A stretch of 45,149 bases of DNA. Origin: Nitrospiria bacterium (GTDB lineage: Bacteria; Nitrospirota; Nitrospiria; SBBL01; JAADHI01). Made by a program: the position numbers and the translations under genes. The notes beneath the pieces are model-generated. The model did no database searches. It had not been told where the DNA came from and worked only from the letters and a program-made list of their open reading frames with translations. The stretch spans positions 1 through 45,149 of the forward strand of contig CALZIJ010000010.1 in NCBI GenBank assembly GCA_945787655.1, written 5' to 3'. This document shows, piece by piece, positions 2,715 through 40,370 of this stretch; positions within the stretch are counted from its first letter, which is position 1; each line of letters opens with the position of its first letter.

Positions 2715-3449
2715 TTAATACACGATTTGAACCAGGACCAATCCATGCGCGGGCGCGGTCGGGCCGGCTTTTGTCCGGTCTTCGGCGGACAGGATTTCGG
2801 CCACTTCATTGGCCTTCCTCTTTCCCCGGCCCACTTCGACAAGAAACCCGACTATGTTTCGGACCATGTAGCGTAAAAAGCGTTGGGCTTGCAGGGTGAT
2901 GTCAATTTCCGCCCCGTTCTGTGTTATCTGAATCGGCTCTAAATAAATATCGTGGTCGGGGGCGTCGGTATCCGCCGCACAAAAAGAGGTGAAACAATGC
3001 CTTCCCTCAAACGCTTTTGCCGCCAGCCGCATCTCGCCAAGATCTAAATCAGAACGTACCCACCAGTGCGCATGCCGTAAAAGCGGTGCGCGGTATTTTG
3101 CATTGAAAAGTTGATAGCGATAGGTTTTCATCTTGGCCCCGAATCGGGCATGGAAGTCCTCACCCGTTAAAACAGCCGCTTCAATCACCATGTCTTCCGG
3201 TAAAACAGCATTGAGCGCGCGCTGCCACTCCGCTGGAGAAAAATCCGCTTCGGTATCAAAATGCGCCACTTGGCCCAGCGCATGAACGCCCGCATCGGTC
3301 CGGCCTGCGCCATACACCAGGGTCGGGTTTTGTGTGATCTTTTGAAGCGCCGCCTCAAGAGTCCCTTGAAGACTTCGGTGGTTTTCCTGCTTTTGCCAGC
3401 CGTGATAATGCCCGCCGTCATACCCAATCGTTAACTTGACCCGCTGCAC
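2715..3449 (-). CDS. truA: tRNA pseudouridine(38-40) synthase TruA
   Basis: TruA converts uridines 38-40 in the tRNA anticodon arm to pseudouridine. The 244-residue product has the normal length for the family. The catalytic motif GRTDAGVHA is present with Asp52 as the nucleophile, and the N-terminal sequence IGYDGGHYHGWQKQ and the C-terminal FLRYMVRNIVGFLVEVGRGK are family signatures. Translation starts at a GTG one base after the stop of the upstream amidase gene, so the two are almost certainly translationally coupled. It is the last gene of the ISC operon. Confidence 0.95.
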   Translation of the reverse strand: MQRVKLTIGYDGGHYHGWQKQENHRSLQGTLEAALQKITQNPTLVYGAGRTDAGVHALGQVAHFDTEADFSPAEWQRALNAVLPEDMVIEAAVLTGEDFHARFGAKMKTYRYQLFNAKYRAPLLRHAHWWVRSDLDLGEMRLAAKAFEGRHCFTSFCAADTDAPDHDIYLEPIQITQNGAEIDITLQAQRFLRYMVRNIVGFLVEVGRGKRKANEVAEILSAEDRTKAGPTAPAHGLVLVQIVY

Positions 3450-3450
3450 G

Positions 3451-4617
3451 TTATGCGCCGGTGCCCAATGAGTGGATGTAAGATTCGATCCCTTTCATCA
3501 ATGCTTCTGCGGCCCGTTGACGATATTGTGCATTTTTAAGTCTGCGTTCTTCTTTTCGGTTACTAATGAAGGAAATCTCCGCGAGAATCGCGGGCATTTT
3601 GGTATGGTTTAACACATAAAAAGGGGCGCGTTTTACACCCAGGGCTCTCGTGGGATATTTCGCAATCAGGTTTTTTTTGAGGGCATTATTGGTAAAATGC
3701 GCCAGCTCCAACGAGGCTTTTTTTGTAAAATCACGTTTTAAATCATTCAAAATAATTTTTTCAAAATCCATCGACTCCTTATGTGCCTCGGCATTTTCGC
3801 GTTTGGCCACCGCCAAGGCCCTTTTGTCTGATGCTTTTCCGAGCAAATAGACCTCAATCCCTTGTAATTTTTTAGAGGTGCTGGAATTGATATGCACGGA
3901 GACAAACAAATCCGCATTGTTTTCATTGGCAATTTCTGTCCGCCGTTTCAATGAAATAAATACATCTTTGTTGCGCGTCATAATCACTTTTTTCTTGAGT
4001 TTATTTTCGATCAGTTTTTTTAAACGACGGGAAATATCCAGGGCGATATTTTTTTCCTCAAGTCCACCCCGGCTTCTCGCCCCCGGATCTTTTCCGCCGT
4101 GACCGGGATCGATCACAATGGTCTTGATTGAAAATGCCGCCGGTGTGGGTTCAGGCGGAAAAAGGTCGATGACCAGTCGATCGGGATTTTCAAGAATCAG
4201 GTGCTTGTGGCTTCCCAACTGCTTATACAACAGGGAGATATAGACGGTTTTATTCCCCCGCTGGGTCACTTCGATTTTATCAATCAAATCACCCGTCATG
4301 GCATAGCTCGAACGCTGTTTGAGGTATTTCCCCAAAACGGCTTGCTCCAGTTTGACCAGGAGCGTACGAGAAGACACATCCCGCGTGACGGCATAGGAAA
4401 CCGTTCGGTTGAGATCAATCACAACACGGGTGCTGTCCGGATTATTTGAATGCCGGATTTTATTGACGACTGTTTTGCTGGATGGTTTGTTCGCGACAAG
4501 TTGCGGGGCAGGGAAATCCGGCCGAAAATCCGCAAACACAAGTGGGGCGTTGCCTAAAAAAAGGAGAGAAAATAAAAAAAGATATGCACTATAAAAATAT
4601 CGTGTCGGCTGTCTCAT
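3451..4617 (-). CDS. N-acetylmuramoyl-L-alanine amidase (AMIN + Amidase_3, AmiC-like)
   Basis: A periplasmic zinc amidase that cleaves the bond between N-acetylmuramic acid and L-alanine in peptidoglycan, usually for daughter-cell separation. The 388 residues comprise a signal peptide (1-29), an AMIN domain at about 45-155 that targets such enzymes to the septum or envelope machinery, and an Amidase_3 domain at about 165-385. Zinc ligands and catalytic residues are visible: His173 in DPGHGGKDPGA, Glu188, His242 in VSVHINSS and Glu347 in ILAEISFISNRKEE. It lies 36 bases after iscX and one base before truA, so it is carried by the ISC operon, an unusual partner. Its name as AmiA, B or C cannot be settled from sequence alone. 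Confidence 0.93.
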   Translation of the reverse strand: MRQPTRYFYSAYLFLFSLLFLGNAPLVFADFRPDFPAPQLVANKPSSKTVVNKIRHSNNPDSTRVVIDLNRTVSYAVTRDVSSRTLLVKLEQAVLGKYLKQRSSYAMTGDLIDKIEVTQRGNKTVYISLLYKQLGSHKHLILENPDRLVIDLFPPEPTPAAFSIKTIVIDPGHGGKDPGARSRGGLEEKNIALDISRRLKKLIENKLKKKVIMTRNKDVFISLKRRTEIANENNADLFVSVHINSSTSKKLQGIEVYLLGKASDKRALAVAKRENAEAHKESMDFEKIILNDLKRDFTKKASLELAHFTNNALKKNLIAKYPTRALGVKRAPFYVLNHTKMPAILAEISFISNRKEERRLKNAQYRQRAAEALMKGIESYIHSLGTGA

Positions 4618-4653
4618 CTGCTGTTCTAAACATAGACAGAAGCACGGGACTTG

Positions 4654-4866
4654 TCAATCCTGAGCGTCTTGATATTCTTCAAGCCAGGCCATTTGAATGG
4701 CTTCCAGAATCCCTTCGTTGGATCCTTTGGGATCGCCTTCAAAATCAGGCAGCTCAAGCACTTTTGCATGCAGGTCCGTAAAGCGGACGGTGAGAGGGTC
4801 CATCTCAGGATATTTTTCAAATAATGCAATACCAATGTCTTCCGCATCGTGCCAACCCAGCGTCAT
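4654..4866 (-). CDS. iscX: Fe-S assembly protein IscX
   Basis: A 70-residue acidic protein with the family sequence WHDAEDIGIALFEKYPEMDP and the motif TVRFTDLH, ending in the conserved EAIQMAWLEEY helix. IscX binds IscS at the same face as frataxin and tunes cluster assembly, and may bind iron. It follows fdx by 53 bases in the usual isc order. The start ATG has a purine-rich AAGGAATCGGG upstream. Confidence 0.93.
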   Translation of the reverse strand: MTLGWHDAEDIGIALFEKYPEMDPLTVRFTDLHAKVLELPDFEGDPKGSNEGILEAIQMAWLEEYQDAQD

Positions 4867-4919
4867 ATCACCCGATTCCTTTCTTTCTTAAACATGTTAA
4901 TAGAGTACAAGGTGTTTTG

Positions 4920-5252
4920 TCAGTGAGGTTCGGCTTTTCTGAATGCCTGCGTATTCACGGGAATCTCGACGACACAATCTCCTTCAATAAGCGCCTGGCA
5001 GGCAAGCCGGGAAGTCAGGGTTAAATCAGGAGCCGTATCGAGACGGTCCTCTTCTTCTTCTTCCATTTCTGAAAGATGATCAACACCTTTGCGAACAATC
5101 ACATGACAGGTCGTGCATGCACAGTTTCCACCGCAGTTATGCTCCAGTTCGATATCATGGTCCAAGGCAACGTCCAGGACGGTTTCTCCTTTTTCAACGT
5201 CGAACGTATGTTCAGTTTGGGGGTGTCCGGTAATAAATGTAATTTTCGGCAT
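4920..5252 (-). CDS. fdx: ISC-type [2Fe-2S] ferredoxin
   Basis: An adrenodoxin-type ferredoxin that supplies electrons for Fe-S cluster assembly on IscU. The likely cluster ligands are Cys40, Cys46, Cys49 and Cys85, in NCGGNCACTTCH and RLACQ. A fifth cysteine (Cys44) in the loop matches the extra cysteine typical of isc ferredoxins. The acidic helix EMEEEEEDRLDTAP is where partners dock in this family. The 110-residue length is normal, and it lies 16 bases after hscA. Confidence 0.95.
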   Translation of the reverse strand: MPKITFITGHPQTEHTFDVEKGETVLDVALDHDIELEHNCGGNCACTTCHVIVRKGVDHLSEMEEEEEDRLDTAPDLTLTSRLACQALIEGDCVVEIPVNTQAFRKAEPH

Positions 5253-5268
5253 GTTTAATTTTCCTGAA

Positions 5269-7101
5269 TTAAAGATCCTTCAGTTTTTTGTTCTGAAGCG
5301 CTTCCTGGACGGATTGAGACATGAGGTCTGCGGCAAAACGCTGCGTCGCCTGATCCAATGCAGTGAGTTTTTCACGGACCGCCTTGTGCATCTCGCTTGA
5401 GATGGCATTTTTTAGCTCGGCGATGGCCTTTTCGATTTTTTCCTTTTCGGCATCGTCTAAAAGTGAAGCCCCCTGTGCAAGCGCCTTTTCTGTGTGGTGA
5501 AGCACGGTTTCCGCCTCGTTTTTTGATTCGATCCATTGCCGTTTTTCAAGGTCTTCTTTCGCGTGTTCCATCGAAGCGGAAATCATTTTTTCCGCGTCCG
5601 CATCACTTAACCCATAAGTTGGTTTAACCTCGACGGTGGTTTCTTTCCCGCTTTTTAAATCTTTTGCCGTGACATTCAAAATGCCGTTGGCATCGATTAA
5701 AAAGGTCACTTCAATCCGCGGCATGCCCGCAGGCATGGGGTCAATTCCTGTAAGATTAAATTTGGCCAAACTGCGGCAATCCTCAACCAGCTCCCGCTCG
5801 CCCTGTACCACATGAATGGAAACCGACCGCTGACCATCGACCTGGGTTGAATAGGTTTCCTTTGCCGTCGTTGGAATGGTGGCATTTCTTTGAATGAGAC
5901 GACTCACTACTCCGCCCATCGTTTCAATCCCCAATGAAAGCGGCGTAACATCCAGAAGGAGCATGTCTGTAATGGCGCCGGAAAGAATCTGTGCCTGGAC
6001 CGCCGCGCCCAAGGCGACAACTTCGTCCGGGTTAAGTTCACTGTGCGGCTGTCTTTGAAAAAAATCACCGACAGTTTCCTTGAACAGCGGCACACGAATG
6101 GATCCTCCAACCAGAACCACTTCGTTAACATCCGTTGGGGTGAGTTTCGCATCCGCCAAGGCTTGTGTGCAAGAATCAATCGTTCTGGAAATGAGCGGTG
6201 TGATCAGCTTTTCAAATTCAGACCGACTTACCCGGCGAATATACTGGGTTTTTTTATCCGGCAGCGTTAATGTGATGTCTACAGATTCCTCGGAGGAGAG
6301 CGCACATTTCACTTTTTCTGAAGCCAGCCGCGCCTCTTGCATCGTTTCTGGAAAATCCTGTATCTCCACTTTGTATTTTTCTAAAATTTCTTTTCGGATC
6401 AGTTGAACCAGTTTCTGATCAAAATCATCCCCGCCCAAGTGGGTATCCCCATTCGTTGATAACACCTGAAAAATACCGTTGTTAATTTTTAAAATAGAGA
6501 TATCAAAGGTGCCTCCCCCCAGATCATAGACGGCAATAATCCCCTTCTTTTCTTTTTGCAATCCATAGGCGAGCGAGGCCGCAGTCGGTTCATTTAAAAT
6601 CCGAAGCACTTCAAGACCGGCCAGCTTTCCGGCATCTTTTGTGGCCTGACGCTGACTGTCATTAAAATAAGCCGGTACGGTAATCACCGCCTGTGTGACT
6701 GAAGTATTCAAGGCTTTTTCTGCACGTGCTTTCAGCGCGCTCAGGATATGTGCGGAGATCTCAGGCGGAGAGTGCTGTTGATCACCTATCTGAATTTGAA
6801 CGCCTTCTTTTCCTTTTCCCAAAAAAACAAACGGGAGATGCTGAAGATCAGCCTCAAGATCTTCACGGCCTTTCCCCATAAAACGCTTCACGGAATACAC
6901 CGTTTCTTTTGGATGGGTCATTAAACGGGCTTTCGCCTGCTCTCCGGTCAAGGTTTTTTGAGGGCCTTCCTTCAAAAAAGCAACGATGGATGGAAGGGCG
7001 ACTTGTCCATTTTCATCAGGAATAGCACGTGGCGTTTTCCCATCCATATAAGCAACCAGGCTGTTTGTCGTTCCTAAATCAATTCCAACAACTTGCGGCA
7101 T
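5269..7101 (-). CDS. hscA: Fe-S chaperone HscA (Hsp70 family)
   Basis: A specialised Hsp70 that, with HscB, drives cluster transfer from IscU by ATP hydrolysis. The 610 residues include the phosphate-1 loop [16 protein letters not shown] at the N-terminus, [12 protein letters not shown], the phosphate-2 region [11 protein letters not shown] and [11 protein letters not shown], all Hsp70 signatures. The substrate-binding part follows ([14 protein letters not shown]). The short C-terminal tail lacks the EEVD-like or long acidic tail of DnaK. HscA recognises an LPPVK motif in IscU, which is present in the neighbouring iscU product. It is 15 bases downstream of hscB. Confidence 0.96.
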
Positions 7102-16113: not shown

Positions 16114-17216
16114 ATATGAAGAAAAACTAAAAGCGATCCAACTCGAAAACGAACAGCTTCGGGGGCATCTTTGACCTCGATGAAACGAAGCGGAAAATCG
16201 AGAAAATAACAGATGAAGTTTCTGCCCCGGAATTTTGGGATCACCCCGAAAAAGCCCAGGAAAAGATGGCCGAGAAAACCCAGCTCGAAAAAGCGCTTAA
16301 ACGTTGGGAAGAAGTCGACCGCGATCTGGAAGAAACTGAACTTCTGATCGAACTCATTAAAGAGGAAAAAGACCCCGCGCTTGAAAAAGAGCTTGCGCAG
16401 GCTTTTGAAGCCTTGCAACACAAGATCGACCGGCTGACCATTGAAACCCTTTTTACCGGGGAAAAGGATTTTAATAACGCCATCGTCACCATCCATCCGG
16501 GTGCAGGCGGCACAGAATCCCAAGATTGGGCACAGATGCTAACCCGAATGTATGTTCGATGGATCGAACGCAAGGGCTTTGAAGTCGACACCCTGGATTT
16601 GCAAGCGGGGGACGAAGCCGGGATAAAAAGTGTGACCCTGCTCGTTAAAGGGCCCTATGCCTATGGGTATTTCAGGGCCGAGGCGGGTGTACACCGGCTT
16701 GTGCGTATCTCGCCTTTCGATGCCAATAAACGGCGCCACACCTCTTTTGCCTCAGTATTCGTATCTCCTGAAATTGAAGAGGACATCGGCATCGAAATTG
16801 ACGAAAAAGACATCCGCGTGGACACCTATCGTGCCAGCGGAGCGGGCGGGCAGCATGTGAATAAAACCTCATCAGCCATACGGATTACGCACTTACCCAC
16901 GGGTTTTGTAACACAGTGTCAAAATGAACGGTCCCAGCGTCAGAACAAACTGATCGCGATGCGTGTATTAAAATCCCATTTGTATGAATTACAGCAGGAA
17001 GAGAAGCAGGAAGCCATGGACAAAATGACGGGCGAAAAAAAGGAAATCGGCTGGGGAAGTCAAATCCGCTCCTATGTCTTCCAGCCTTATCAAATGGTGA
17101 AGGATCATCGGACTGGCATAGAAGTGGGCAATGTGACCTCCGTCATGGACGGCGACATTGATGTTTTGATCGAAGGGTATTTAAAACGTCCGAAAACACT
17201 TGAAAAAAAACCCTAG
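16103..17216 (+). CDS. prfB: Peptide chain release factor 2, with programmed +1 frameshift
   Basis: RF2 ends translation at UGA and UAA codons. Translation starts at the ATG at 16103 and meets an in-frame TGA at 16172-16174 after 23 codons; slipping +1 at CTT moves it into the long downstream frame, giving 370 residues. The body contains the stop-recognition tripeptide SPF (203-205) in RLVRISPFDANKRR and the catalytic GGQ (248-250) in SGAGGQHVNK. The length is normal for RF2. The gene overlaps lnt by 11 bases. Its stop codon shares the palindrome CTAG with the stop of the convergent sensor-kinase gene. Confidence 0.96.
16160..16175 (+). promoter_or_regulatory. prfB programmed +1 frameshift site
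   Basis: The site reads CGG GGG CAT CTT TGA C: an internal Shine-Dalgarno-like GGGGG, a CTT slippery codon and the RF2-specific stop TGA followed by C. This has the same layout as the E. coli site (AGG GGG TAT CTT TGA C). When RF2 is scarce, TGA is read slowly and the ribosome slips +1, an autoregulatory loop known in many bacteria. Confidence 0.95.
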
Positions 17217-19930
17217 TTGTTTGAAGTTTGCCCACCCCGGCGCACAACAGGAATACGAATTGAAATGCGGGTCCCTTGTCCCGGATGGGAGTCAATATAA
17301 AAAGTGCCCCCTGAAAGCTCCACGCGCTCTTTCATCCCTAAAATTCCGATTTCTTTTCTCATCATCTGCGGGGATGAAAAATAACGTTTCACATCAAACC
17401 CCTTCCCGTCATCCGTCACATAAAGATGAATGTAAGGGTCCCGTTTTTCCAATGAAACAATGGCAGATTCGGCTTTCGCGTGAGTCCCGATATTCGCGAG
17501 GGATTCCTGAATAATACGAAACAGCAAAATTTCGATTCGGGCGGGCAGGCGTTTGATCGCCCCTGAAATTTGCAAATGCACTTTAATTTCGTTTTGTGAT
17601 TCAAACTCCTTAACAACCCATTTTACTGTCGAAACCAGACCGGACTCATCCAGTATAGGCGGCCGCAGTTCCGCAGAAAGATTTTTTAGACTTTCAAAGG
17701 TTGCCCCGGCGACTCGACTTGAACGGTCCAGTCTTTTTTTCACTTCGGACGTAGGGGAGTCCATCTTTTTTTTCAGCCACTCCACGTCATTTCGAATAGT
17801 GGTCAGGGCCTGTGCGGATTCTTCCCTTAACTTTTTGGCAATTCTCCTGCGTTCTTCTTCCTGTACATTTACAATAGCGGAAGAAAGGGTTTGAAGACGT
17901 TCCCGATGTCGGCTCACAGAGTTATGTAAAATCGCATTTTCGATGCCGATCGAAACTTGATAGGCCATGTCAGACACCCGCTGTATTTCATCTTCGGTAA
18001 ATTTTCTAAAATACCGGGTTTCATCCAGCAGCAAAACCCCGCTGACGCGGTCTTTGTTGATCAAGGGAACCGCAAGCAGTGAACGGGATTTGAAGGCCTT
18101 CATCCACTTTTTACCCACCCGTGCATCGTGTGAAGCATTTTCGATAACAAAGGGATGCCGCTCCTTCGCGGTAATGGGAATCAGGTGATTCTCGTTGACC
18201 TTGATTTCAAATTTTCTGACGGCGTCCGCACGTTGCTCCGAGGCACATGCCCCGTAAAAAAGATGTCGTTTTGCGTCTTCTAAAAAGATATAACTGTTAC
18301 TCGCACCAATCATTTTTTTAAGGTTGTCCGCAATAGACGAAAGGAGCTGTTCGAGGTTCAGGCTTTTCGAAATCGATTGCCCGACCTCATTTAAAGTCAA
18401 CAGGGACTCAATCTTTTTTTGCAACAAGCCAAAGGCGCGGATTTGATCAATACCATATCCGATTTCTTCACCGAGAGTTGTGGCTGCATGCAGTTCCCTG
18501 TCTGAAAACAAGGTGTCACGACTAAAAAATATTAAGACCCCCCAGAGATGGTCATCCGATTCAACCGGAATACCCATGAAAGAAATCAAGCCTTCTTCTC
18601 CGAGAAGTCTTTTTTTAAGATGAGATTTTTTCGACTTTGCCGTGAGGATCATCGGGACGCTTTTTTCAACGGTTTTCCAAATCAGGTGTTCCTTTGCCCC
18701 GATACCGTGTTTTTGGACCTGTTCCAGTTGCTGATCCGAGAATCCCTGATCCGCAAGAATCGATATCTTCTTTTTTCCGCTTTGCAGCTTTAAGAGGGCC
18801 GCCCCTTCGATCCCAAATTGGGCAAAACCCTTATACATGGCCTCGGTTAATATGGCCTCTTCTTCAATTTGATGTTTGGCATGCCCCGAAGTTTCTTTAG
18901 AAATTTTTCTTAAGGCCAGGGAAATCGTATTGATCACCGTCTGCATTCCTTTTTTAAAAGCCAGTTCGGTTTCCAGAGGCTCAATGTCTGTGATATCCTC
19001 TGCCGTCAACACCACCCTTTTAATTTGATCTTCTTCTTTCTCCGGATGAAATTTTGCACGGACGATCCTTTTCCTGCCGCCAGCCCTTACGAAAGTCAGC
19101 TCTACCGGCTCAGCGTCCGGCGTATTTCCGGCTTTGATCTTTTTCATCATTCCTGAAAAGGCGGAGCCTCCTTTTTTCAGAAAAAGCTTTGAGATCGGCA
19201 TTTTTTTGATGGCTTCCTCATCCATGCCGACAAGGGTTAAAAAACCCTTATTGCCGCTCTGTATTCGGGATGAAAGATCCAGAACAACAGTAATCGGTTC
19301 CGGGCCGCTTGGCGGAGAATCCTCTTCATCTTTCATCACAACAGGAGGAGCAGGCTGGGGTTTTGTCGGTAGCAGAAAAGGGGTCACCAGGTTTGACAAC
19401 AGCATAAAAACACCCTGATCCGAAACGCTTAAGGCATAAGGCTCAAAAAAACCAATAAGCAGCGATCCATGGATACGATCCCCGGACTTTAAAGTCACAC
19501 CACTAAAGGTTTTAATATTAATACCGCGAATCACTTGACCAATAAACCGCCGGTCCTTTGAAATATCTTCAGAAAACAGGACACCCGATTCGTGGCTGAC
19601 AATGGTGGGAAGAGACTGCCATGCCCGTGCAAGCTTGCCGTCCTTTAAAAGGTGCTCAGGCAGCCCCTTTTGGAAATACAGCACCCACTCCTGCGTCTCT
19701 TCATCCTGGGTAAACAAAAGCATAATATCAGGTTGAATCATGTCCCTGATTTGCTCTAAGAGACGGTCTAAAAAAGCTTCCGAATGAAGCGCCCCCTCGG
19801 AGAGATCCGAATAGAGCTGGATTACCGGGTTGAGTTTTTCATAAAGGTTTGAAGATCTTTCACCCTGCGCAGAAAGGTCAATTCCTTCGTTGCCATCGAA
19901 TGATGACTCTTGCGGTACTGCATCGGACAT
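17213..19930 (-). CDS. Multi-GAF/PAS sensor with HATPase domain, histidine-less HisKA_3
   Basis: A 905-residue cytoplasmic sensor of the NarL-type kinase class. Domains seen are an N-terminal GAF-like region (about 30-190), a PAS-like segment (about 205-320, VVLDLSSRIQSGNKGFL), two GAF domains (about 350-510 and 515-670), then dimerisation and ATPase domains. The HATPase is intact: N box FRIIQESLANIGTHAKA, G1 DDGKGFD, G2 GILGMKERV. In the HisKA_3 helix EERRRIAKKLREESAQA the expected histidine is Arg702 (codon at 17825-17827). I prefer ATG 19930 (AAGGAA upstream) over the in-frame GTG 19951. No response regulator is adjacent. It is either a pseudokinase or a signalling ATPase that works through a partner. 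Convergent with prfB. Confidence 0.85.
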   Translation of the reverse strand: MSDAVPQESSFDGNEGIDLSAQGERSSNLYEKLNPVIQLYSDLSEGALHSEAFLDRLLEQIRDMIQPDIMLLFTQDEETQEWVLYFQKGLPEHLLKDGKLARAWQSLPTIVSHESGVLFSEDISKDRRFIGQVIRGINIKTFSGVTLKSGDRIHGSLLIGFFEPYALSVSDQGVFMLLSNLVTPFLLPTKPQPAPPVVMKDEEDSPPSGPEPITVVLDLSSRIQSGNKGFLTLVGMDEEAIKKMPISKLFLKKGGSAFSGMMKKIKAGNTPDAEPVELTFVRAGGRKRIVRAKFHPEKEEDQIKRVVLTAEDITDIEPLETELAFKKGMQTVINTISLALRKISKETSGHAKHQIEEEAILTEAMYKGFAQFGIEGAALLKLQSGKKKISILADQGFSDQQLEQVQKHGIGAKEHLIWKTVEKSVPMILTAKSKKSHLKKRLLGEEGLISFMGIPVESDDHLWGVLIFFSRDTLFSDRELHAATTLGEEIGYGIDQIRAFGLLQKKIESLLTLNEVGQSISKSLNLEQLLSSIADNLKKMIGASNSYIFLEDAKRHLFYGACASEQRADAVRKFEIKVNENHLIPITAKERHPFVIENASHDARVGKKWMKAFKSRSLLAVPLINKDRVSGVLLLDETRYFRKFTEDEIQRVSDMAYQVSIGIENAILHNSVSRHRERLQTLSSAIVNVQEEERRRIAKKLREESAQALTTIRNDVEWLKKKMDSPTSEVKKRLDRSSRVAGATFESLKNLSAELRPPILDESGLVSTVKWVVKEFESQNEIKVHLQISGAIKRLPARIEILLFRIIQESLANIGTHAKAESAIVSLEKRDPYIHLYVTDDGKGFDVKRYFSSPQMMRKEIGILGMKERVELSGGTFYIDSHPGQGTRISIRIPVVRRGGQTSNN

Positions 19931-20097
19931 TTCAAGTTCCTTGCTCGCCACTGCGAGCTCAATTCAGTGTGGTATGCCATCATTTTTTGGAGAGGCGTTA
20001 CCAGGCGATTCAACCATCAGGCCGGATGCCTTTTCCTCTTCTTTTTATATGTAAAACGGCATAATAGCGTCTTTTAACTACACGCTTTCTGGCGGCG

Positions 20098-20126
20098 ACG
20101 TTAGCACACCCCGGTTTTAAAGTCAA
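20098..20126 (-). promoter_or_regulatory. Sigma-70-type promoter of the multi-GAF sensor
   Basis: Minus strand TTGACT (20121-20126), a 17-base spacer and TAACGT (20098-20103) predict a start near 20092 and a leader of about 160 bases. The surrounding 19952-20298 interval holds no other feature I can support. Confidence 0.5.
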
Positions 20127-20298
20127 AAAATAGTGCCTGAAATGGCCCTATTTTGTATCACTTATTTTATAAAAAAACGATTCCTTTTTTATTCAATCCG
20201 CCTGGACGACTACCACTAATTTACAGACTTAAATAATCACAATAAATATGGAATTCAAAACATAACATTGTCCTGATTTTTTCAGGTTTCGGACTCAG

Positions 20299-21390
20299 TC
20301 ACCTTATTTGTTCTATACGATTTCGACCCTTGTTTTTAGCCAGAAAAAGGGCCTGGTCCGCCCGTTCGATAAGCGGGCCGGATTGATGATGGTCTTTAGG
20401 ATGAACAGCTGTCACGCCGATACTCAAGGTCAGGCGGTCAGCAGTAAACGATGCTGGATTGGGAATGTTTTCACCCCTTATGGCATTTTGAATTCGATTG
20501 GCAACGATTAAGGCCCCGTCCAAGGAAGTCGATGGTAAAATGATCGAAAATGTCTCCCCCCCATAACGCGCCAGCAAATCAACGGAACGAAAGAGTTGAC
20601 TGTGAATCACTTCGGCCACACGTTTGAGCACGTCTTCTACCCCGACCGGCCCCTTGATGTCTCCGAACTGTTTTAAATAGTCCACATCACAAACGATGAG
20701 GGATAGATCGGCATTTTCTCGCCGAGCGCGCTTTAGCTCTTCTTCAATGCGCCTGTCAAATAAATCCCGGTCAGTGATCTCGGTCAATGTTTCATACTGC
20801 AGGAGATGTTTAACTCTCAAATTGGACTGTTTCAGTTTATCCTTCATCACCAACAACTCAGATTCAAGTGATTTTTCCACACTTAAATCCCGAAAAATGG
20901 CCATAAAAAACTCACTCTGATCGATTAATACCTGCTCTGTTACGATTAACTCCGCAGTAAAAACAGAGCCATCACTCCGCTGACAATCTAAACCCACGGG
21001 ATTGTAAAACAAACCGGATTCAGTAAAATGGAAATACCGCATGATTTTTTCATCAACATCCCTGTCTCCACTCAAGGCAACAAGGCGGTTGATATTTTTC
21101 CCAATCAGCGATGCTTGTTTATAATTAAACATTTTTTCACCAGAAGGATTAATATCCCGGATCTTTCGGCTTTGATCCACCTTCACGACAGCATCCCGGG
21201 AAGAGTCAAACAACATCCGGCATTCAATATGTTTTTCCAGGAGATGTTTATTTTTTCGATTCAGAACCCGGAGCAAAGCCCCAAGTGTTAAAAAAAGGGT
21301 CGTCAGGAAAATCGTTACAGAACTCATCGTCATCAAGACAGGCTGCCAATTCGTCGGAGATTCCACATCACTTTTCAGTCCGGTGGACAC
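20299..21390 (-). CDS. PAS-GGDEF protein, degenerate diguanylate cyclase
   Basis: A 363-residue membrane-anchored signalling protein: one helix (about 18-42), a PAS domain (about 55-180, RMLFDSSRDAVVKVDQSRKI), a linker coiled coil and a GGDEF domain (about 205-363). The active-site signature is RYGGETFSI, so position four of GGDEF is Thr280 instead of an acid. Other motifs are also altered: the usual FND...GH..GD is FGDIKGPVGVED, and LTGLxNR is LTEITDR. Active c-di-GMP synthesis is therefore doubtful; such domains can act as GTP or c-di-GMP receptors. Translation starts at a GTG just after upstream stops. The upstream 21391-21489 gap shows nothing definite. Confidence 0.85.
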   Translation of the reverse strand: MSTGLKSDVESPTNWQPVLMTMSSVTIFLTTLFLTLGALLRVLNRKNKHLLEKHIECRMLFDSSRDAVVKVDQSRKIRDINPSGEKMFNYKQASLIGKNINRLVALSGDRDVDEKIMRYFHFTESGLFYNPVGLDCQRSDGSVFTAELIVTEQVLIDQSEFFMAIFRDLSVEKSLESELLVMKDKLKQSNLRVKHLLQYETLTEITDRDLFDRRIEEELKRARRENADLSLIVCDVDYLKQFGDIKGPVGVEDVLKRVAEVIHSQLFRSVDLLARYGGETFSIILPSTSLDGALIVANRIQNAIRGENIPNPASFTADRLTLSIGVTAVHPKDHHQSGPLIERADQALFLAKNKGRNRIEQIR

Positions 21391-21489: not shown

Positions 21490-24400
21490 TTAACGGTGTT
21501 CAGGGACAATCCAGACCGTGTGTTCTTCGTCACCTCTTAAAAAAATAAATTGTGCTTTTACACCGGGAGTCAACTGACTCAGCGCATCCGAAAATATCTT
21601 GATATCCCGAAGAAATGTCTTTCCGATCCAGTACAAAATATCTCCTTCTTCAAGGCCCGCTTTTTCTGCGGGAGAGTCCGGGAGTGTTCCGGTAATTCGC
21701 ACGCCTTCTTCCGCATAACCAAAGTCAGGCACCGTACCAATGGCGACCTTTCTTTGTGCGGATGGCCGCTCTCGTCGGTCTTTTCCGGAAGAAGGCGTTA
21801 AGGTATTCGTCAGGGACTCCGGGCGACTCGAAAGGTATTCGATCGCTTCTTTCATCACCATGGCGACTTTTAAAAGGCCCGCCGGATCAATTTTTTCAGC
21901 AGTATCTGTTGGCCTGTGAAAATCCGTGTGAACGCCGCTAAATAACTGTACAGCGGGTACGCCCGCCTTATGAAAAGCCACATGATCACTGGGGTTAAAA
22001 TCCGAGTTCACAGTTTGAATGGGCACTCCGGTGACAAAACCGATGCCGCGAAAAATATGCTGCCATTGTGTCGCGGTTTTTGTGCCGAACACCTGGAGGG
22101 TATTGTTCCCCAACCGACCAACGGTATCCATATTAAGCATGCCCATGATCTTTTCCGGCGGAAACGTTTTCATTGTCGAGACATAGTGCTCTGCCCCGGC
22201 AGTTTGCATTTCCTCTCCACTAAAGGCCGCAAAAATGACACTTCGTTCCGGTTTCCAACCGTCTCCCAAAACCCGTGCTAATTCCAATAACACGGCGACG
22301 CCGCTGGCATTGTCATCCGCACCGGGGTGGATTTTTCCTGCATCCTCCGCATGGGCATCCGGCCAGCCGAGTCCGAGGTGGTCATAGTGGGCGCCAACAA
22401 CGACACTTTCCCCTTCATATTTCGGATTACTCCCTGGTAATACGCCCACGACATTTTTCAGCGTGGCCGGTTTCTCCGGCGACCCGCCTTTTTGAGACCA
22501 GGACTGGAAATAACGATCCTCCGCATCCCCCAGAGGTTTTAATCCTGATTTCTCAAATTGAGCGCGGATGTATTCCGCCGCCTGATCCAGCTCCGGGGTA
22601 CCGAAGCCCCGCCCCTTCATCTTCTCGTCTGCCAGAAAAGCGATATCCTTCATCATCCGATTTTCAGAAAAAAGGGAAGGTAAAAAGGCAAGCGGACTAC
22701 GGGGGTTCCGTTCGGCCGCCTCAGCCTTTGAGTGATTCAGCGAAATAGATAATGGGGAATTCAGGACCGGCCAGACCCCCTTGAGCATATTGTCTGGCAC
22801 ATTTCCCTTAAAACCCAGGTAACTGTATCGCCCGTAGTGTGGCAGCTTCCGCGCCAGGCCCGGCAGAGCATCCGCAGAATCAGCCGTCAACCAGGTCAGG
22901 GCCAGCTCCAGATTATTAGGGTGGCGCGTCGTGATCACCACTGAATGACCTGCACGGTCAACCAACTGCTCGGCCACGCGCACCTGCTTTGATTTGATCG
23001 AGACGCCATATGGGGCAAGTGCCTTTCGCACCGCCCTTTGAAATTGATTTTTCCACCCCAAAATCCAAACGCTGCGGTCCTTCGGCAGACGCTTTAAATC
23101 CATATCCCACTGAATATCAACATCTTCCGGCCGCCCTTCCTGCCAGGACCGCGCCAGTTCGTCATAAGCGCCGCGCATTTCTCCTTTTTCGTTGGAAGGC
23201 AAGATCACCAGAATTTTCTCCGAGCCAAAGGCCAGAGACAAGGCGGGTGGAAGTTCATTTCGACTCAACCGCCGGAAAAGATCAAATTCAGGATCGATGT
23301 CGAGTTTGATGGGCCGCTTCGAAAAAAGCAATGAAAAGGTCAGCTCCTTTTCCGACATTGATACAGTGGTTTGCACGGCTTTTTCCTCGCCTTTTAATGT
23401 CACCGCAATAGGGATGTGAAGCGTGTAAGGGGCCCCGGCCTGTGTCTGCGCCAGGGTAACCAGCAAGCGAAATTCCCCGTCGGCCCGCTGAACTGCGGCC
23501 TTTTTCACGATAAGTTCGGGCGCACCGGAGTATTCTACCCATTGATCAAACCCCTTTCCAAGATCATGTCCCGCAACATCCGAAAACGCCTGCTTTAAAT
23601 CTGAAAAACGTGCCCGCTGAAACCGGTGTTTTTTATAAAACCCTCGAAGCGCACGCAGGAAAGTATCGTCCCCCAATTCCATGCGAAGCATGTGAAACAG
23701 CATCAGGGTTTTCCCGTAACCGACCGCTTCGGTGGCGGCGCTTTGGCGCTGGCGAAAGGCCGTCAGCGGAAAATCCTGCCCGCTGGAAACATAATCTGTA
23801 TATTTCTGCAGTGTCGCCCGTCTTGAAGCGCTGCCCTGTCCACGCTGCTCGGCAATGAGGTGGTCGGCCAGGTAGGTCGTCAACCCCTCGGCCCAATTGC
23901 CTTGCTCATAATCCACATACACACTGTTGCCCCACCAATTGTGAAGAATTTCATGCGGATAGGAGGAATGTAAAATAAAGGGCATTCGGATAATTTTTGG
24001 CCCTAACAAAGTAAAGGAAGGCATACCGTAGCCTGTTTCCCAAAAATTTTCGACCAGTGCGAATTTTTGGTAGGGGTAAGGGCCCAGTAACTTCTGGTAC
24101 ATTTCAAGGTATTGCACCGTGGCTGCAAGGTATTTCTCCGCAAGGGCTTTATCCGGCTCCCTTAGAAATACCATTGCGTCGATTTTCCCTGCAGGGCGCT
24201 GATATGCCGTCCATTTCCCGCCAATAAGGTAGATTTCTTCCTGGGGCTCAGGGGATGCCCAATGTACTGTTGTTTTTCCAGCGTCACGGGTGTGTTGTGT
24301 CCGTGTCCCCTGGCTCACGGCATCCCATCCAGGAGGCAAGGTGAGATCAAGAGAAAATCGTACCAATGCCTCTTGAAAAACCGGAAACCAAAAAGAAGTC

Positions 24401-24846
24401 CCGGCTAAAAAAACACCCTCTTTTGAAATGATTCCCGGTGTTTCACGAAAACTGCGGCCATAATTTTCGCCTTCTTCCTTCAAGGGGTGATGAATCTTCC
24501 CCGCATACTGAATTTCAAATGTACGGATACCTTTCTCTAGAATCACCTGAACATGTTCAAGCGGGAGGTCGGGGTGCAAATCAGGAATGTCCGCTGATTG
24601 CCGTTGGATCGTCACACCGGGGGTGGGGGAGATGGGGTTGAGGTCTGCGTGAATGAGAAAGGAAAGCGATTGTCCGCTTTCTAAAAAATCATCGGGCAGA
24701 GTAATCGTGTCTTCGACCCGCAGGGTGTTCGTGGCCGGATCTATGGCCGCCGTGAGTTCATGTTGAATGACGGCGGCGAACACCGATGCGGCATTGAAGA
24801 AAAATAGAAAAAGTAAACTAATGACCGCTCTTTTTCTCATCGTCAA
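21490..24846 (-). CDS. Exported M1-M28-PDZ peptidase
   Basis: A 1118-residue exported protein with two metallopeptidase domains and a C-terminal PDZ domain. After a signal peptide (1-24), an M1-like domain (to about 450) carries zinc motif HEILH (298-302) with a likely third ligand Glu320 in NWAEGLTTY. A GYGMPSFTL stretch stands where M1 enzymes have GAMEN. A middle region leads to an M28 domain (about 755-1015) with ligands in AHYDHLG, GADDNASG, FSGEEMQTAG, MLNMDTVG and SDHVAFHKAG. A PDZ-like domain (about 1030-1118) ends the protein (GTLPDSPAEKAGLEEGDIL). Together they suggest stepwise peptide trimming in the periplasm or outside the cell. The GGDEF gene lies 99 bases downstream on the same strand. 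Confidence 0.9.
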   Translation of the reverse strand: MTMRKRAVISLLFLFFFNAASVFAAVIQHELTAAIDPATNTLRVEDTITLPDDFLESGQSLSFLIHADLNPISPTPGVTIQRQSADIPDLHPDLPLEHVQVILEKGIRTFEIQYAGKIHHPLKEEGENYGRSFRETPGIISKEGVFLAGTSFWFPVFQEALVRFSLDLTLPPGWDAVSQGTRTQHTRDAGKTTVHWASPEPQEEIYLIGGKWTAYQRPAGKIDAMVFLREPDKALAEKYLAATVQYLEMYQKLLGPYPYQKFALVENFWETGYGMPSFTLLGPKIIRMPFILHSSYPHEILHNWWGNSVYVDYEQGNWAEGLTTYLADHLIAEQRGQGSASRRATLQKYTDYVSSGQDFPLTAFRQRQSAATEAVGYGKTLMLFHMLRMELGDDTFLRALRGFYKKHRFQRARFSDLKQAFSDVAGHDLGKGFDQWVEYSGAPELIVKKAAVQRADGEFRLLVTLAQTQAGAPYTLHIPIAVTLKGEEKAVQTTVSMSEKELTFSLLFSKRPIKLDIDPEFDLFRRLSRNELPPALSLAFGSEKILVILPSNEKGEMRGAYDELARSWQEGRPEDVDIQWDMDLKRLPKDRSVWILGWKNQFQRAVRKALAPYGVSIKSKQVRVAEQLVDRAGHSVVITTRHPNNLELALTWLTADSADALPGLARKLPHYGRYSYLGFKGNVPDNMLKGVWPVLNSPLSISLNHSKAEAAERNPRSPLAFLPSLFSENRMMKDIAFLADEKMKGRGFGTPELDQAAEYIRAQFEKSGLKPLGDAEDRYFQSWSQKGGSPEKPATLKNVVGVLPGSNPKYEGESVVVGAHYDHLGLGWPDAHAEDAGKIHPGADDNASGVAVLLELARVLGDGWKPERSVIFAAFSGEEMQTAGAEHYVSTMKTFPPEKIMGMLNMDTVGRLGNNTLQVFGTKTATQWQHIFRGIGFVTGVPIQTVNSDFNPSDHVAFHKAGVPAVQLFSGVHTDFHRPTDTAEKIDPAGLLKVAMVMKEAIEYLSSRPESLTNTLTPSSGKDRRERPSAQRKVAIGTVPDFGYAEEGVRITGTLPDSPAEKAGLEEGDILYWIGKTFLRDIKIFSDALSQLTPGVKAQFIFLRGDEEHTVWIVPEHR

Positions 24847-29683: not shown

Positions 29684-31813
29684 ATGAAATCACCCGCAAA
29701 CAAACTCATTGAAATTAATCCGGCTCAGCTGATCTCAGCCTTGATGGATTTTCAAATTGCCATCCGTAAAGTGGCCCTTTACGGCTTTTCTCACCCCATC
29801 GTCCCCAAACTCACAACAAATCTAAAAGAACAATTTAATCCGCTGATACAACAAGCGGAAACATTGTCATTTGTTATCGCCAAAAACGATATTCTGTACA
29901 ATGAACGGCCCCTTTCCAGTCAACATCCTGTTATCGTTGAATTGGCCAGAACCCTCCATCAACTCAATCTCATCCAGTTCACTTTTAAAAAAGCGGTCTC
30001 TGAGGAAGATCTTCTGGCCTTTTTAAAATTTATTGTGGAAACCCGTTCTGCACAAATCACACAGGAAGATCCATTGCTTTCCGAATTCCATAAAACCGTA
30101 GACAGCATCTCGCTTCAGCGGGTCAGTTTTAAAGAGGTCGTGAGCCTTAGCGATAGCAAAGATCCTGATACTCCCAAAACATCCGGCCCAGAGCTCTGGA
30201 GAAACCTCGTTCATCATCTTGAAAACGACCATTTGCCGGAATCGGTAAAACAGGTCTTTGAAAGTGAAAAAGACACCCCTCCTGACCCGGATCAGATCGC
30301 GGCCATCGTCAACGACTTGTATGCCCACAATAATCACAAACCGGCCAAAAACAATCTCTATGATGCCGCCATTGTCAACTACCTGAAGGAACGCGCCAGT
30401 CAGCAACAAGAACACGAGATATCATCCTCAGACCGTGCTCAAGATCTCTGTACCCTGTTTTCCAATCTTCGTGAGGATGTGCGCCATCAGCTCTTTCGAT
30501 TTGCGACCAAAGAACAGGACGGAGGGAAAATGGCGATTGAAAGCTTGTTGGAAATGCTGCCGCCCAAACAGTTGCCTGAAGTTTTAAAACACATTCAACT
30601 CTCTGAACAAACGGTTTCAAAGCCGATGTTCAGTTTGCTTAAAAAGATGGTTTCCCTTTCAGGCCCGGATGACATGCGCGAACATTTACTCTCATCCCGT
30701 TTTGAAAATCACGAAGGTTTAATTGAAGAATTACTGAGTGATCGTTCAGACCGAGAATATTACCCCGCGCAGCACAGAGCCTTGCTGGACAGTGAGCTTT
30801 CCGACCAAATGGCGGCCATGCAGGAGGCCCCCAATGCCGGAATCAACCCGCTCGTGGATGCTGAAACCGATTATCATCTGGCCCTAATACTCATTGAACT
30901 GCTCGATGGTCCCATTTATTCCGAAGTCCAAATGAAAAGCTGTGTCGACTACATGAAAACCCTTCTTGTACAAGGGCTTGGAGAAAACACACAGTCCATC
31001 ACGATACAGACCCTTAAAACCTTGCTTAAAAACTGTGGTTCGAACAAGGCCTCAGACCGGACATTTTGGAAAAACGCGTTAAAAATGGTCCTTGCCCCTG
31101 AAATCTTATTGCAGCTTATAAGCGCTTCGGTCGAAAAATCCGAAGAAGAATTTCAGATACAGGACTTGATCACCGTCGCGGGCTCGGAATTATTTCCGGT
31201 CCTGCTTCAGGTTCTGGAAAATGAATCCAACCTCTCCACACGCAAGCAGATCCTGCATTTTATCGTCCAATGCGGCCGACCGGTTATTCCTTTGGTAGTG
31301 GAACAGCTCTCCAGTGAAAAATGGTATGTTGTCCGGAATATGCTGATGATTCTCAAAGACCTGCGTGCGGAGGAAGCCCTCCCCGAAATGGCCTGCTGCA
31401 TGACCCACGAATCCGGCAAAGTCAGGCTCATGGCCCTGCAAGCACTAATGGCCGCCGGACCGGAATCGGATGAATTACTGGAAGCTGCTAAAATAGGGCT
31501 TCAGGACGAAGATGAAAAAATTTCCAAAACGGCCGCCGATTTAATTGCTGAACGTTCCCATATCAGTGCAGGGCCACTCGTGTCTGCCTTGCTTCAACAC
31601 AATACCAAGGGCACGCGGCAGACCATCTGGCAAATTCAATTGATTAGGGCGATCGAAAGATCAGGATCTTCCCACTGGCTTCCTGTACTCGAACCCTTGT
31701 TAAAGTGGAAATTTTTTGGGTTGTTTTGCTGGGGACGGGAACGTCTGTTACAAAAAACACTCCAAAATGCAATCGTAAAACTGAAAAAAGAGGGGGCGCC
31801 GCATGCCGGATAA
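29684..31813 (+). CDS. HEAT-repeat protein with N-terminal domain shared with the HD-GYP neighbour
   Basis: A 709-residue soluble protein of unknown function. The N-terminal ~145 residues (ALYGFSHPIVPKLTTNLKEQ, then FVIAKNDILYNERPL and SEEDLLAFLKFIVETR) correspond to the N-terminal domain of the next gene product. A low-complexity middle leads to alpha-helical repeats from about residue 480 to 660 with HEAT-like pattern (PVLLQVLENESNLSTRKQIL, IPLVVEQLSSEKWYVVRNML, ALPEMACCMTHESGKVRLMA). It probably acts as a scaffold. The stop overlaps the start of the HD-GYP gene by 11 bases, implying coupled translation. Confidence 0.8.
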   Translation: MKSPANKLIEINPAQLISALMDFQIAIRKVALYGFSHPIVPKLTTNLKEQFNPLIQQAETLSFVIAKNDILYNERPLSSQHPVIVELARTLHQLNLIQFTFKKAVSEEDLLAFLKFIVETRSAQITQEDPLLSEFHKTVDSISLQRVSFKEVVSLSDSKDPDTPKTSGPELWRNLVHHLENDHLPESVKQVFESEKDTPPDPDQIAAIVNDLYAHNNHKPAKNNLYDAAIVNYLKERASQQQEHEISSSDRAQDLCTLFSNLREDVRHQLFRFATKEQDGGKMAIESLLEMLPPKQLPEVLKHIQLSEQTVSKPMFSLLKKMVSLSGPDDMREHLLSSRFENHEGLIEELLSDRSDREYYPAQHRALLDSELSDQMAAMQEAPNAGINPLVDAETDYHLALILIELLDGPIYSEVQMKSCVDYMKTLLVQGLGENTQSITIQTLKTLLKNCGSNKASDRTFWKNALKMVLAPEILLQLISASVEKSEEEFQIQDLITVAGSELFPVLLQVLENESNLSTRKQILHFIVQCGRPVIPLVVEQLSSEKWYVVRNMLMILKDLRAEEALPEMACCMTHESGKVRLMALQALMAAGPESDELLEAAKIGLQDEDEKISKTAADLIAERSHISAGPLVSALLQHNTKGTRQTIWQIQLIRAIERSGSSHWLPVLEPLLKWKFFGLFCWGRERLLQKTLQNAIVKLKKEGAPHAG

Positions 31814-33038
31814 TCACCCACACGGACCATCAGACACCTATACTCAAGGCATACCGCGACAAGATTCCGATCCGCCTCTGGGGAATGTTTCAAGTCCGGC
31901 TGAAAAATTTTTGCGGGCAATGGCCAAAATCCTTGTGGACCGTGCTCTTTACCCCGAAAATCATCCCAAAATCATGGCCAGCATGAACGATTTACATCAA
32001 CTGCTTGAAAATTTATTCATCGAAAAAGACCATCGTATTTTTGTTTTTATAGAAGATCAGATCTACATCGATGATCGACTCATTAAAGGAGATGCCAATC
32101 AGGCGGCGATCGCGCAGATCTTTACGGATAAAGGCATTGAAGTCCTGACCCTGCTCACGGGATTAAAGCAGGAAGAACTGCACCTTTTTGTTGAATACCT
32201 CGCCGCACCCAAGACAGAGAATGTAGCGCTGCCCCGTTTTCAATCACACTTTATCACTCTCGGAAAACTCGCCCTAGAGGAGGACGGTAAGACTAAAATT
32301 ATGCCGTCGCTTCAAAATCTGAATATGGCTATTCATAAAAACGGCAAGGCTGAAAACCGTTATTCAGAAGAAACCAAAGTGCTCCGGGACCTCTACCTCG
32401 ACTGGAGTGGTGTACAAACTGCCCTCATTAAAAATGTGGGAAAAATCATGCTCACTTTGGAAACCTCTCTCTTTTCCAATATGTCCTCCCTGATTCCACT
32501 GGCCGAGCTCAAATCCTATGATGAATACACCTATGTCCACGCCATTAATATTGCCATTCTGACTATGGCCCAGGCGGAAGCCCAGGGGTATTCAAAAGAA
32601 GCAATTCACGCTTTTGGCACAGGGGCCATGCTGCACGACGTGGGCAAAACCGAAGTGGCGGTCAAAGTGCTCCATAAACAGGGTAAACTGACTGAGGCGG
32701 AATTTGAGCAAATGAAAAGCCATCCAACACGCGGCGCAATGATGCTGCTTGGATTTCCTGAAATTCCGCGCGTAGCCGCAATCGTGGCCTATGAACATCA
32801 CCTCAAATACAATTGCAGTGGATACCCGACGATGAAACAAAGCCGTCCTCAGCATATCGCCAGCCGCTTTACCGCCATCGCGGATCAATTCGACGCGATG
32901 CGCAGCAATCGACCATACCGGGATGCAATGGCACCTAAAAAAATCCTCGAGATCATGGAGGATGGCAAGGGTGCGGAAATTGACCCCGGCCTTTTTGATG
33001 AGTTTCTTGTCCTGATTAAAAACCGGAAAGTCATCTAA
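31803..33038 (+). CDS. HD-GYP domain protein (predicted cyclic-dinucleotide phosphodiesterase)
   Basis: A 411-residue protein with an N-terminal domain (about 30-140, ALYPENHPKIMASMNDLHQ, FVFIEDQIYIDDRLIKG, KQEELHLFVEYLA) shared with the preceding protein, then an HD-GYP domain (about 225-405). The HD motif is MLHDVGKTEV near residue 277, followed by HPTRGAMML and EHHLKYNCSGYP, so both the metal site and the GYP motif are present. Such domains hydrolyse c-di-GMP or related cyclic dinucleotides. Its start overlaps the HEAT-repeat gene. Confidence 0.92.
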   Translation: MPDNHPHGPSDTYTQGIPRQDSDPPLGNVSSPAEKFLRAMAKILVDRALYPENHPKIMASMNDLHQLLENLFIEKDHRIFVFIEDQIYIDDRLIKGDANQAAIAQIFTDKGIEVLTLLTGLKQEELHLFVEYLAAPKTENVALPRFQSHFITLGKLALEEDGKTKIMPSLQNLNMAIHKNGKAENRYSEETKVLRDLYLDWSGVQTALIKNVGKIMLTLETSLFSNMSSLIPLAELKSYDEYTYVHAINIAILTMAQAEAQGYSKEAIHAFGTGAMLHDVGKTEVAVKVLHKQGKLTEAEFEQMKSHPTRGAMMLLGFPEIPRVAAIVAYEHHLKYNCSGYPTMKQSRPQHIASRFTAIADQFDAMRSNRPYRDAMAPKKILEIMEDGKGAEIDPGLFDEFLVLIKNRKVI

Positions 33039-39131: not shown

Positions 39132-40370
39132 ATGGATACTTTTATAGCAAGACAACCTATTTTTGATGAAAACCAGGACGTGTATGCCTACGAACTGCTT
39201 TTTCGTTCCGGCATGGAAAACTATTTTAATGGCGATAATCTGGATCAGGCTTCTTCCAAAGTGATCGGTGACAGCGTACTGGTATATGGCCTGGATGTGC
39301 TGACTGCGGGGAAAAAGGCTTTTTATAATGTCACGCGGGAAACACTGGTTGAAGAATACTGCGCAATGCTCCCCAAAGATCAAACCGTGGTTGAAATCCT
39401 GGAAACAATCGATCCCGACCCTGAAACACTGGCCGCATGTCAGCGGCTTAAAGCCGCTGGCTACACGATCGCACTGGATGATTTTGTTTACGAAGAAAAA
39501 TACCAGCCCTTCCTGGCCTTGGCCAGCATTGTCAAGGTTGATTTTCTGCTCTCCAGCAAAGAGGAACAGCGTCAAATGGCCGAACTGTTTATCCCGAGAG
39601 GCATTAAAATGCTTGCGGAAAAGGTAGAAACATGGGAGGTGTATCAAGAAGCAAAGGCAATGGGCTATACCTATTTTCAAGGTTATTATTTCAGTAAGCC
39701 CGTTATCATGAGCAGCAAGGACATTCCCGGATTTAAACTTCACTATTTGCAGATTCTTCAGGAAATTAACAAACCCGATCTTGATTTTGACCGGCTTGAA
39801 AACATCATCAAGGAAGAGATGTCCCTGTCCTACAAACTTCTTCGTTACATCAACTCGGCGTTCTTCGGCTGGCAGGTTAAAATTTCTTCCATCGGACATG
39901 CCCTTGTTCTCCTTGGACAGAGCGAGGTAAAAAAATGGGCTTCGCTGATGACACTGGCCAGTATGGCGGATTCACAAAAAGACGAACTGGTCGTGCAGGC
40001 GATTGTTCGGGCCAAATTCAGTGAATCTCTCGCACTTGTATTTCATCAGAAAGCGCGTGCGCAGGATCTTTTTTTAATGGGTATGTTTTCACTGATTGAT
40101 GCCATTATGGACCAGCCTATTGAGGACATTCTCGAAAAAATTCCGATTCATGAAGACATTAAAAGCGCACTGTTAAACCACTCCGGTCAATTTGGGGCAA
40201 TTTATAAACTCGTTCTTGCTTATGAACAAGGCGATTGGGCGGCTATCCCCGCACTCAACGAGGCATTGAACCTGAACGACGATCGTGAAATACCGCAATT
40301 ATATGTTCAAGCTTTGGATTGGGCCAATCAGAGTTTTAAAGAAATGGGGGAGATGCATGCGAATGCATAA
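39132..40370 (+). CDS. EAL-HDOD signalling protein (YuxH-like)
   Basis: A 412-residue two-domain protein: an EAL domain (about 1-205) followed by an HDOD domain (about 205-405). It opens with the family sequence FIARQPIFDENQDVYAYELLFR, where EAL is ELL. Likely metal and catalytic positions persist (YNV, VVEILE, LDDF, IVKVD, LAEKVE), but loop 6, normally DFGTGYSS, reads DFVYEEKY. This suggests weak or absent c-di-GMP hydrolysis, as shown for related EAL-HDOD proteins such as CdgJ. HDOD shows EEMSLSYKLLRYINSAFFGW. The ATG follows GGAG. Confidence 0.9.
   Translation: MDTFIARQPIFDENQDVYAYELLFRSGMENYFNGDNLDQASSKVIGDSVLVYGLDVLTAGKKAFYNVTRETLVEEYCAMLPKDQTVVEILETIDPDPETLAACQRLKAAGYTIALDDFVYEEKYQPFLALASIVKVDFLLSSKEEQRQMAELFIPRGIKMLAEKVETWEVYQEAKAMGYTYFQGYYFSKPVIMSSKDIPGFKLHYLQILQEINKPDLDFDRLENIIKEEMSLSYKLLRYINSAFFGWQVKISSIGHALVLLGQSEVKKWASLMTLASMADSQKDELVVQAIVRAKFSESLALVFHQKARAQDLFLMGMFSLIDAIMDQPIEDILEKIPIHEDIKSALLNHSGQFGAIYKLVLAYEQGDWAAIPALNEALNLNDDREIPQLYVQALDWANQSFKEMGEMHANA

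Follow-up and report, generated by a model that had tools for sequence, protein, structure and literature searches.

An overlapping gene pair

The window, meaning the whole 45,149-nucleotide stretch that was analysed, contains two open reading frames on the same strand with an 11-base overlap, as described in an earlier sequence-only reading of this DNA. The upstream frame encodes a scaffold protein with a shared N-terminal domain, a middle region without a Pfam match and C-terminal HEAT repeats. The downstream frame encodes a predicted phosphodiesterase that begins with its own copy of the shared domain and carries HD_5 in its C-terminal part. The features of the pair are as follows.

29684-31813, plus strand: scaffold gene, 709 aa (open reading frame; orthologues in a dozen related genomes)
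29717-30139, plus strand: shared domain, scaffold type, approximately residues 12-152 (genome profile match at 29717-30067; C-terminal end extended by alignment)
31196-31447, plus strand: best-scoring HEAT-repeat stretch, scaffold residues 505-588 (Pfam HEAT_2, E 1e-12)
31803-33038, plus strand: predicted HD-GYP phosphodiesterase gene, 411 aa (open reading frame)
31893-32225, plus strand: core of the shared domain, enzyme type, approximately residues 31-141 (genome profile match)
32526-32990, plus strand: HD-GYP catalytic region with H246, H278-D279, K282, H307, H332-H333, G340-Y341-P342 and D361 (Pfam HD_5, E 2.3e-20; match to PmGH, E 4.8e-24)

The genome profile matched the scaffold copy with E 1.2e-32 and the enzyme copy with E 7.4e-33, and these values come from a whole-genome profile that includes the two window copies themselves. 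HEAT_2 scored 48.6 bits in the scaffold against a curated cut-off of 27.7, which identifies it as a HEAT-repeat protein, and together with the HD_5 match this bore out the C-terminal assignments of the earlier reading. The start codon of the enzyme falls within the 3′ end of the scaffold gene, and its ATG is preceded by a purine-rich GAGGGGG stretch. When the longest open reading frames were compared in 89 pairs, the median gap between the partners was -4 bases. The two genes are probably translationally coupled. Predicted promoters and terminators showed no excess over shuffles.

Six kilobases downstream of the pair, the window encodes an EAL-HDOD protein (39132-40370, plus strand). On the minus strand, a protein with PAS, GAF and a histidine-kinase-type ATPase domain adjoins a PAS-GGDEF protein (17213-21390). 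The neighbouring stretch of the minus strand (21490-24846) encodes a 1118-aa protein that combines peptidase M1 and peptidase M28 domains.

A shared N-terminal domain

The sequence-only reading had claimed that both proteins begin with an equivalent block marked by three motifs. The first motif read ALYGFSHP in the scaffold and ALYPENHP in the enzyme, the second read FVIAKNDILYNERPL in the scaffold and FVFIEDQIYIDDRLI in the enzyme, and the third read SEEDLLAFLKFI and KQEELHLFVEYL, respectively. All three motifs were approximately present, but the tyrosine of the proposed pattern is an isoleucine in the enzyme. An extra strand-like block (ISLQRVSF in the scaffold, ITLGKLAL in the enzyme) lengthens the shared domain to about 150 residues.

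A plain BLASTP comparison of the scaffold with the enzyme was not significant (E 0.5-0.75), so the similarity seen by eye could have been due to chance. Family profiles of the two N-termini, built from orthologues of both proteins in related genomes, were then aligned with hhalign and matched with a probability of 97.6% and an E of 3e-12 over 106 columns. The N-terminal blocks gave 0.1-2% when aligned with other regions of both proteins, and no control comparison exceeded 4.3%. In searches of 2502 open reading frames, a profile of enzyme N-termini alone found the window scaffold (E 9.8e-9), a profile of scaffold N-termini alone found the window enzyme (E 9e-5), and neither search matched a protein without the shared domain. 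These controls and cross-type searches ruled out chance similarity, and with a significant profile match the claim of an equivalent block survived. As judged from the profiles, the N-terminal 150 or so residues of the scaffold and the enzyme are homologous.

Structures of both copies were predicted with AlphaFold2. The model of the scaffold copy, made from a pooled alignment, had a mean pLDDT of 86.8 and a pTM of 0.80, with helices at 13-33, 39-58, 82-93, 107-122 and 130-138 and strands at 61-66, 69-72, 96-101 and 142-146. The model of the enzyme copy, made from an enzyme-only alignment, had a mean pLDDT of 73 (between 78 and 90 for most of the domain core), with helices at 13-30, 36-52, 79-90 and 104-115 and strands at 58-64, 67-70, 95-99 and 132-135. 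The helices and strands followed the same order in both models (H-H-E-E-H-E-H-E) save for one short extra helix in the scaffold, a likeness that refers to the order of secondary-structure elements and not to a superposition of coordinates. Both window copies matched the profile of paired N-termini and had this order of elements, which places them in one shared-domain family.

The earlier reading had also called the domain unnamed, and the searches agreed with this. Neither Pfam nor NCBIfam matched the N-terminal region of the scaffold or the enzyme convincingly. Across 38 domain copies, the Pfam hits were to isolated, unrelated families, none with an E better than 0.007. When PDB sequences were searched with a profile, only short or spurious matches came up; one of these, to Octarellin V.1, was judged spurious as it covered only 35 residues and recurred three times in the chain. 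With Foldseek, the confident scaffold model had no PDB or viral-model match at E 0.001 or better, and the enzyme model had no PDB match at that threshold. The top Foldseek matches of the enzyme model were GAF-type domains, but at E 0.1-1.5 and with a TM of 0.17. GAF was not matched in Pfam at E 0.1 or better by any of the 38 copies, and hhalign gave a probability of 0.3% or less for the shared domain against a GAF domain of the window, so that membership in GAF was unsupported by either method. The predicted model offers a remote GAF relationship as a lead only.

Conservation and history of the pair

The genome to which the window belongs holds exactly four copies of the domain, namely the two described here and those of a second pair on contig 40. 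The second pair (2751-5958, minus strand) encodes a HEAT protein of 584 aa, in which HEAT_2 was matched, and an HD-GYP protein of 476 aa (locus L079), and it carries its own scaffold-type and enzyme-type domain copies. In a sample of the phylum, the domain was found in 51 of 71 Nitrospirota genomes, where 130 of the 146 copies belong to 65 pairs of adjacent genes on one strand, which come from 46 genomes. At least some of the copies without a partner are situated at the end of a contig. Pairs were also frequent in the phyla to which two MAGs labelled Deltaproteobacteria belong (68 of 92 copies in 34 pairs, and 58 of 83 copies in 29 pairs), and one was present in a Zixibacteria MAG (L072). The sequence-only reading had proposed a survey of gene pairing across genomes, and its claim held, as conserved pairing was found in Nitrospirota and in other phyla. 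Wherever both partners could be classified in the fetched loci, the gene for the shared domain with HEAT was upstream and that for the shared domain with HD-GYP downstream. The flanking genes differ between lineages and are conserved among close relatives only; thus, the pair forms its own stand-alone unit.

Two local observations were made beside individual pairs. In eight genomes of the non-Nitrospirota phyla, the opposite strand next to the pair carries a gene for a small HEAT protein of about 190-220 aa (L290, L300, L302, L304, L305, L309, L310 and L311). In another genome of the same genus (G001, contig 13, 47063-49624; L014 and L044), several stop codons break up the pair, which is either decaying there or affected by a faulty assembly.

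A tree was built from 200 domain copies, with the type labels taken from the C-terminal domains and not from the domain placed in the tree. Every one of the 100 enzyme copies fell on one branch with a support of 0.91, from which scaffold copies were absent, and the 192 typed copies separated perfectly into two types. The split was still 98% clean after more divergent phyla and architectures had been added. Since the enzyme copies form a single branch, the split is older than the lineages compared, and on this tree it predates the pairs of the Nitrospirota, the Zixibacteria and the Deltaproteobacteria-labelled genomes. Later on, the two-gene unit was duplicated as a whole. The proposal that the two genes arose by duplication is therefore right in that they carry paralogous copies of one domain, but the duplication was an ancient split and not a local event.

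The co-divergence of the partners was measured by a mirror-tree comparison of full-length scaffolds and enzymes in 89 pairs, which gave an r of 0.94. When partners were randomly swapped within the 22 genomes that have two pairs, the mean r fell to 0.18 and none of 1000 random swaps reached the observed value; all 22 single swaps also lowered r. By this measure the partners have not been exchanged in these 22 genomes. Linked duplication alone could give such a signal, so the comparison shows co-inheritance and not contact.

The domain was also found in other architectures. Diguanylate cyclase fusions of the form GGDEF-AAA_16-domain-HEAT were seen at L145 and L277-L282 (with Pfam run on L145, L277 and L280), for example at 4329-8171 of L145, 2530-6774 of L277 and 2867-7111 of L278. 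The fusions at L277 and L278 each carry two tandem copies of the domain; the idea that these are one scaffold-type and one enzyme-type copy was rejected because all are scaffold-type. A protein of 918 aa (L286, 4920-7676) combines the shared domain, HEAT, a cyclic-nucleotide-binding (cNMP) domain and PilZ. The domain is N-terminal in PAS-HisKA-HATPase histidine kinases (L207 and L209) and C-terminal to the kinase in Ser/Thr kinase proteins (L283-L285). The unpaired occurrences in histidine kinases, GGDEF fusions and the cNMP-PilZ protein mean that the domain needs no HD-GYP partner and, on the architectures found, it is not special to HEAT and HD-GYP.

At L283 (1517-8544), a gene for a kinase followed by the shared domain, with weak HEAT similarity, precedes a gene for a protein with the shared domain, HD-GYP and DUF4388. 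At L284 (4093-9054), a single open reading frame of 1653 aa matches both of these adjacent genes, in order. The subfamily of L283-L285 is divergent and its HD-GYP is degenerate, having lost catalytic motifs. The natural fusion is the best of the indirect evidence that the partners work together. The genes might instead be merely co-transcribed and have the domain in common through the reuse of N-terminal signalling domains, without a joint mechanism, and the other architectures lacking a partner gene agree with this. We consider it very improbable, because the same adjacent pair recurs in several phyla, the typed copies fall perfectly into two types, the partners have stayed together in genomes with two pairs, and one frame fuses both.

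The shared domain could also be a ligand sensor, in which case both proteins would bind one small molecule or ion and show parallel responses to it, with their N-terminal domains out of contact. Its place ahead of PAS-HisKA-HATPase and behind Ser/Thr kinase domains is typical of sensors, a conserved aromatic/His and His/Asn pair (LYxxxHP and IHxxxN) could form a site, and the top structural matches of the enzyme model, weak as they were, are sensors of the GAF type. On the other hand, neither Pfam nor hhalign supported kinship with GAF, and parallel sensing alone leaves the strict gene order, the overlap and the fusion of the partners unexplained. We regard parallel sensing as unlikely.

The HD-GYP enzyme and a proposed module

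The catalytic part of the window enzyme has all metal ligands of the H...HD...H...HH...D motif (H246, H278, D279, H307, H332, H333 and D361). These ligands and the GYP are kept in nearly all of the 89 paired enzymes, and the GYP triad (G340-Y341-P342) was conserved in all 87 sequences that cover it. An E185-type glutamate is a subgroup feature and is not required of HD-GYP enzymes generally. In PmGH from Persephonella marina, a GAF-HD-GYP c-di-GMP phosphodiesterase (PDB 4MCW) that is the closest solved relative of this HD-GYP by sequence, E185 is a ligand of the trinuclear centre (PMC4159591). The window enzyme lacks this glutamate and has Y242 at the aligned position, as 85 of the 89 paired enzymes have a tyrosine; hence, a dinuclear metal centre is expected. 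Dinuclear HD-GYPs carry out one-step hydrolysis according to a review (PMC8177086). The substrate is assumed from family membership to be c-di-GMP or another cyclic dinucleotide. The RpfG type, V-cGAP3 and PmxA, which are HD-GYPs with sensory or regulatory N-termini, share the complete ligand motif and the GYP triad with the window enzyme.

Both PmGH and the window enzyme have an accessory domain N-terminal to the catalytic domain, but in PmGH this is GAF, whereas that of the window enzyme is not detectably so. A HEAT partner gene for PmGH is not known to us. Its homodimer forms only via the N-terminal GAF domain and a linker helix (PMC4159591), and by this precedent each protein of the pair might homodimerise through its own domain, with the partners meeting at another site, where the HEAT solenoid would touch the HD-GYP domain or the linker. 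The two GGDEF fusions with tandem scaffold-type copies would fit such like-with-like pairing. HEAT repeats are general protein-binding surfaces and could provide the other contact. Homodimerisation would leave unexplained why the domain split anciently into two co-inherited types and not one, and we think it rather unlikely.

Other known systems resemble parts of the pair. Bacterial HEAT-repeat proteins (Pfam HEAT_2, PBS lyase HEAT-like) share the C-terminal HEAT_2 repeats with the scaffold; unlike them, the scaffold has an N-terminal signalling domain and a gene that overlaps an HD-GYP gene. The c-di-GMP receptor DvhD from Desulfovibrio vulgaris is comparable to the degenerate HD-GYP partners of L283-L285. 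It has a periplasmic dCache and PAS and is without crucial metal ligands, in contrast to the window enzyme with its dinuclear set. DvhD dimerises and passes on its signal through a helical stalk and the PAS region (PMC13090378). In the open-licence literature searched, we found neither a paper that describes the pair nor an HD-GYP controlled by a separate HEAT protein with a paralogue of the enzyme's own N-terminus. HEAT proteins are a known kind, as are HD-GYP enzymes that have accessory domains, and a matched pair built on an unnamed domain is probably undescribed.

At the level of sequence, the domain copies are ancient paralogues, the pair is a conserved and co-inherited unit, and the active-site residues are intact. 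Formation of a heterodimer, as suggested by the sequence-only reading, is plausible and consistent with the co-divergence, the gene overlap and the one natural fusion. Our preferred model, to which we give about an even chance, treats the two genes as a stand-alone signalling module in which scaffold and enzyme dock through their shared domains, either on each other or within a mixed dimer, by analogy with the N-terminal dimerisation of PmGH. Through this docking, the HEAT protein would position or gate the phosphodiesterase, and binding of a partner to the HEAT solenoid would alter how c-di-GMP, or another cyclic dinucleotide, is hydrolysed locally.

The shared domain has further links to c-di-GMP through its GGDEF and PilZ fusions, and the genome of the window contains 33 GGDEF matches and 9 PilZ matches. 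A broader and more tentative proposal, which we rate as possible though somewhat doubtful, is that the two co-inherited domain forms dock specifically and make HEAT and HD-GYP an obligate, insulated pair. By the same proposal, the domain would connect HEAT scaffolds with diguanylate cyclases, PilZ receptors and kinases, and local complexes for cyclic-dinucleotide signalling would result in the Nitrospirota and several other phyla. The pair bears on how cells with dozens of c-di-GMP enzymes, as suggested here by the number of GGDEF matches, keep their signals separate. A phosphodiesterase with its own matched scaffold, unswapped through repeated duplications, lends itself to testing the idea of local signalling, and once defined, the shared domain would supply an annotation for the front of many signalling proteins, now blank in current libraries.
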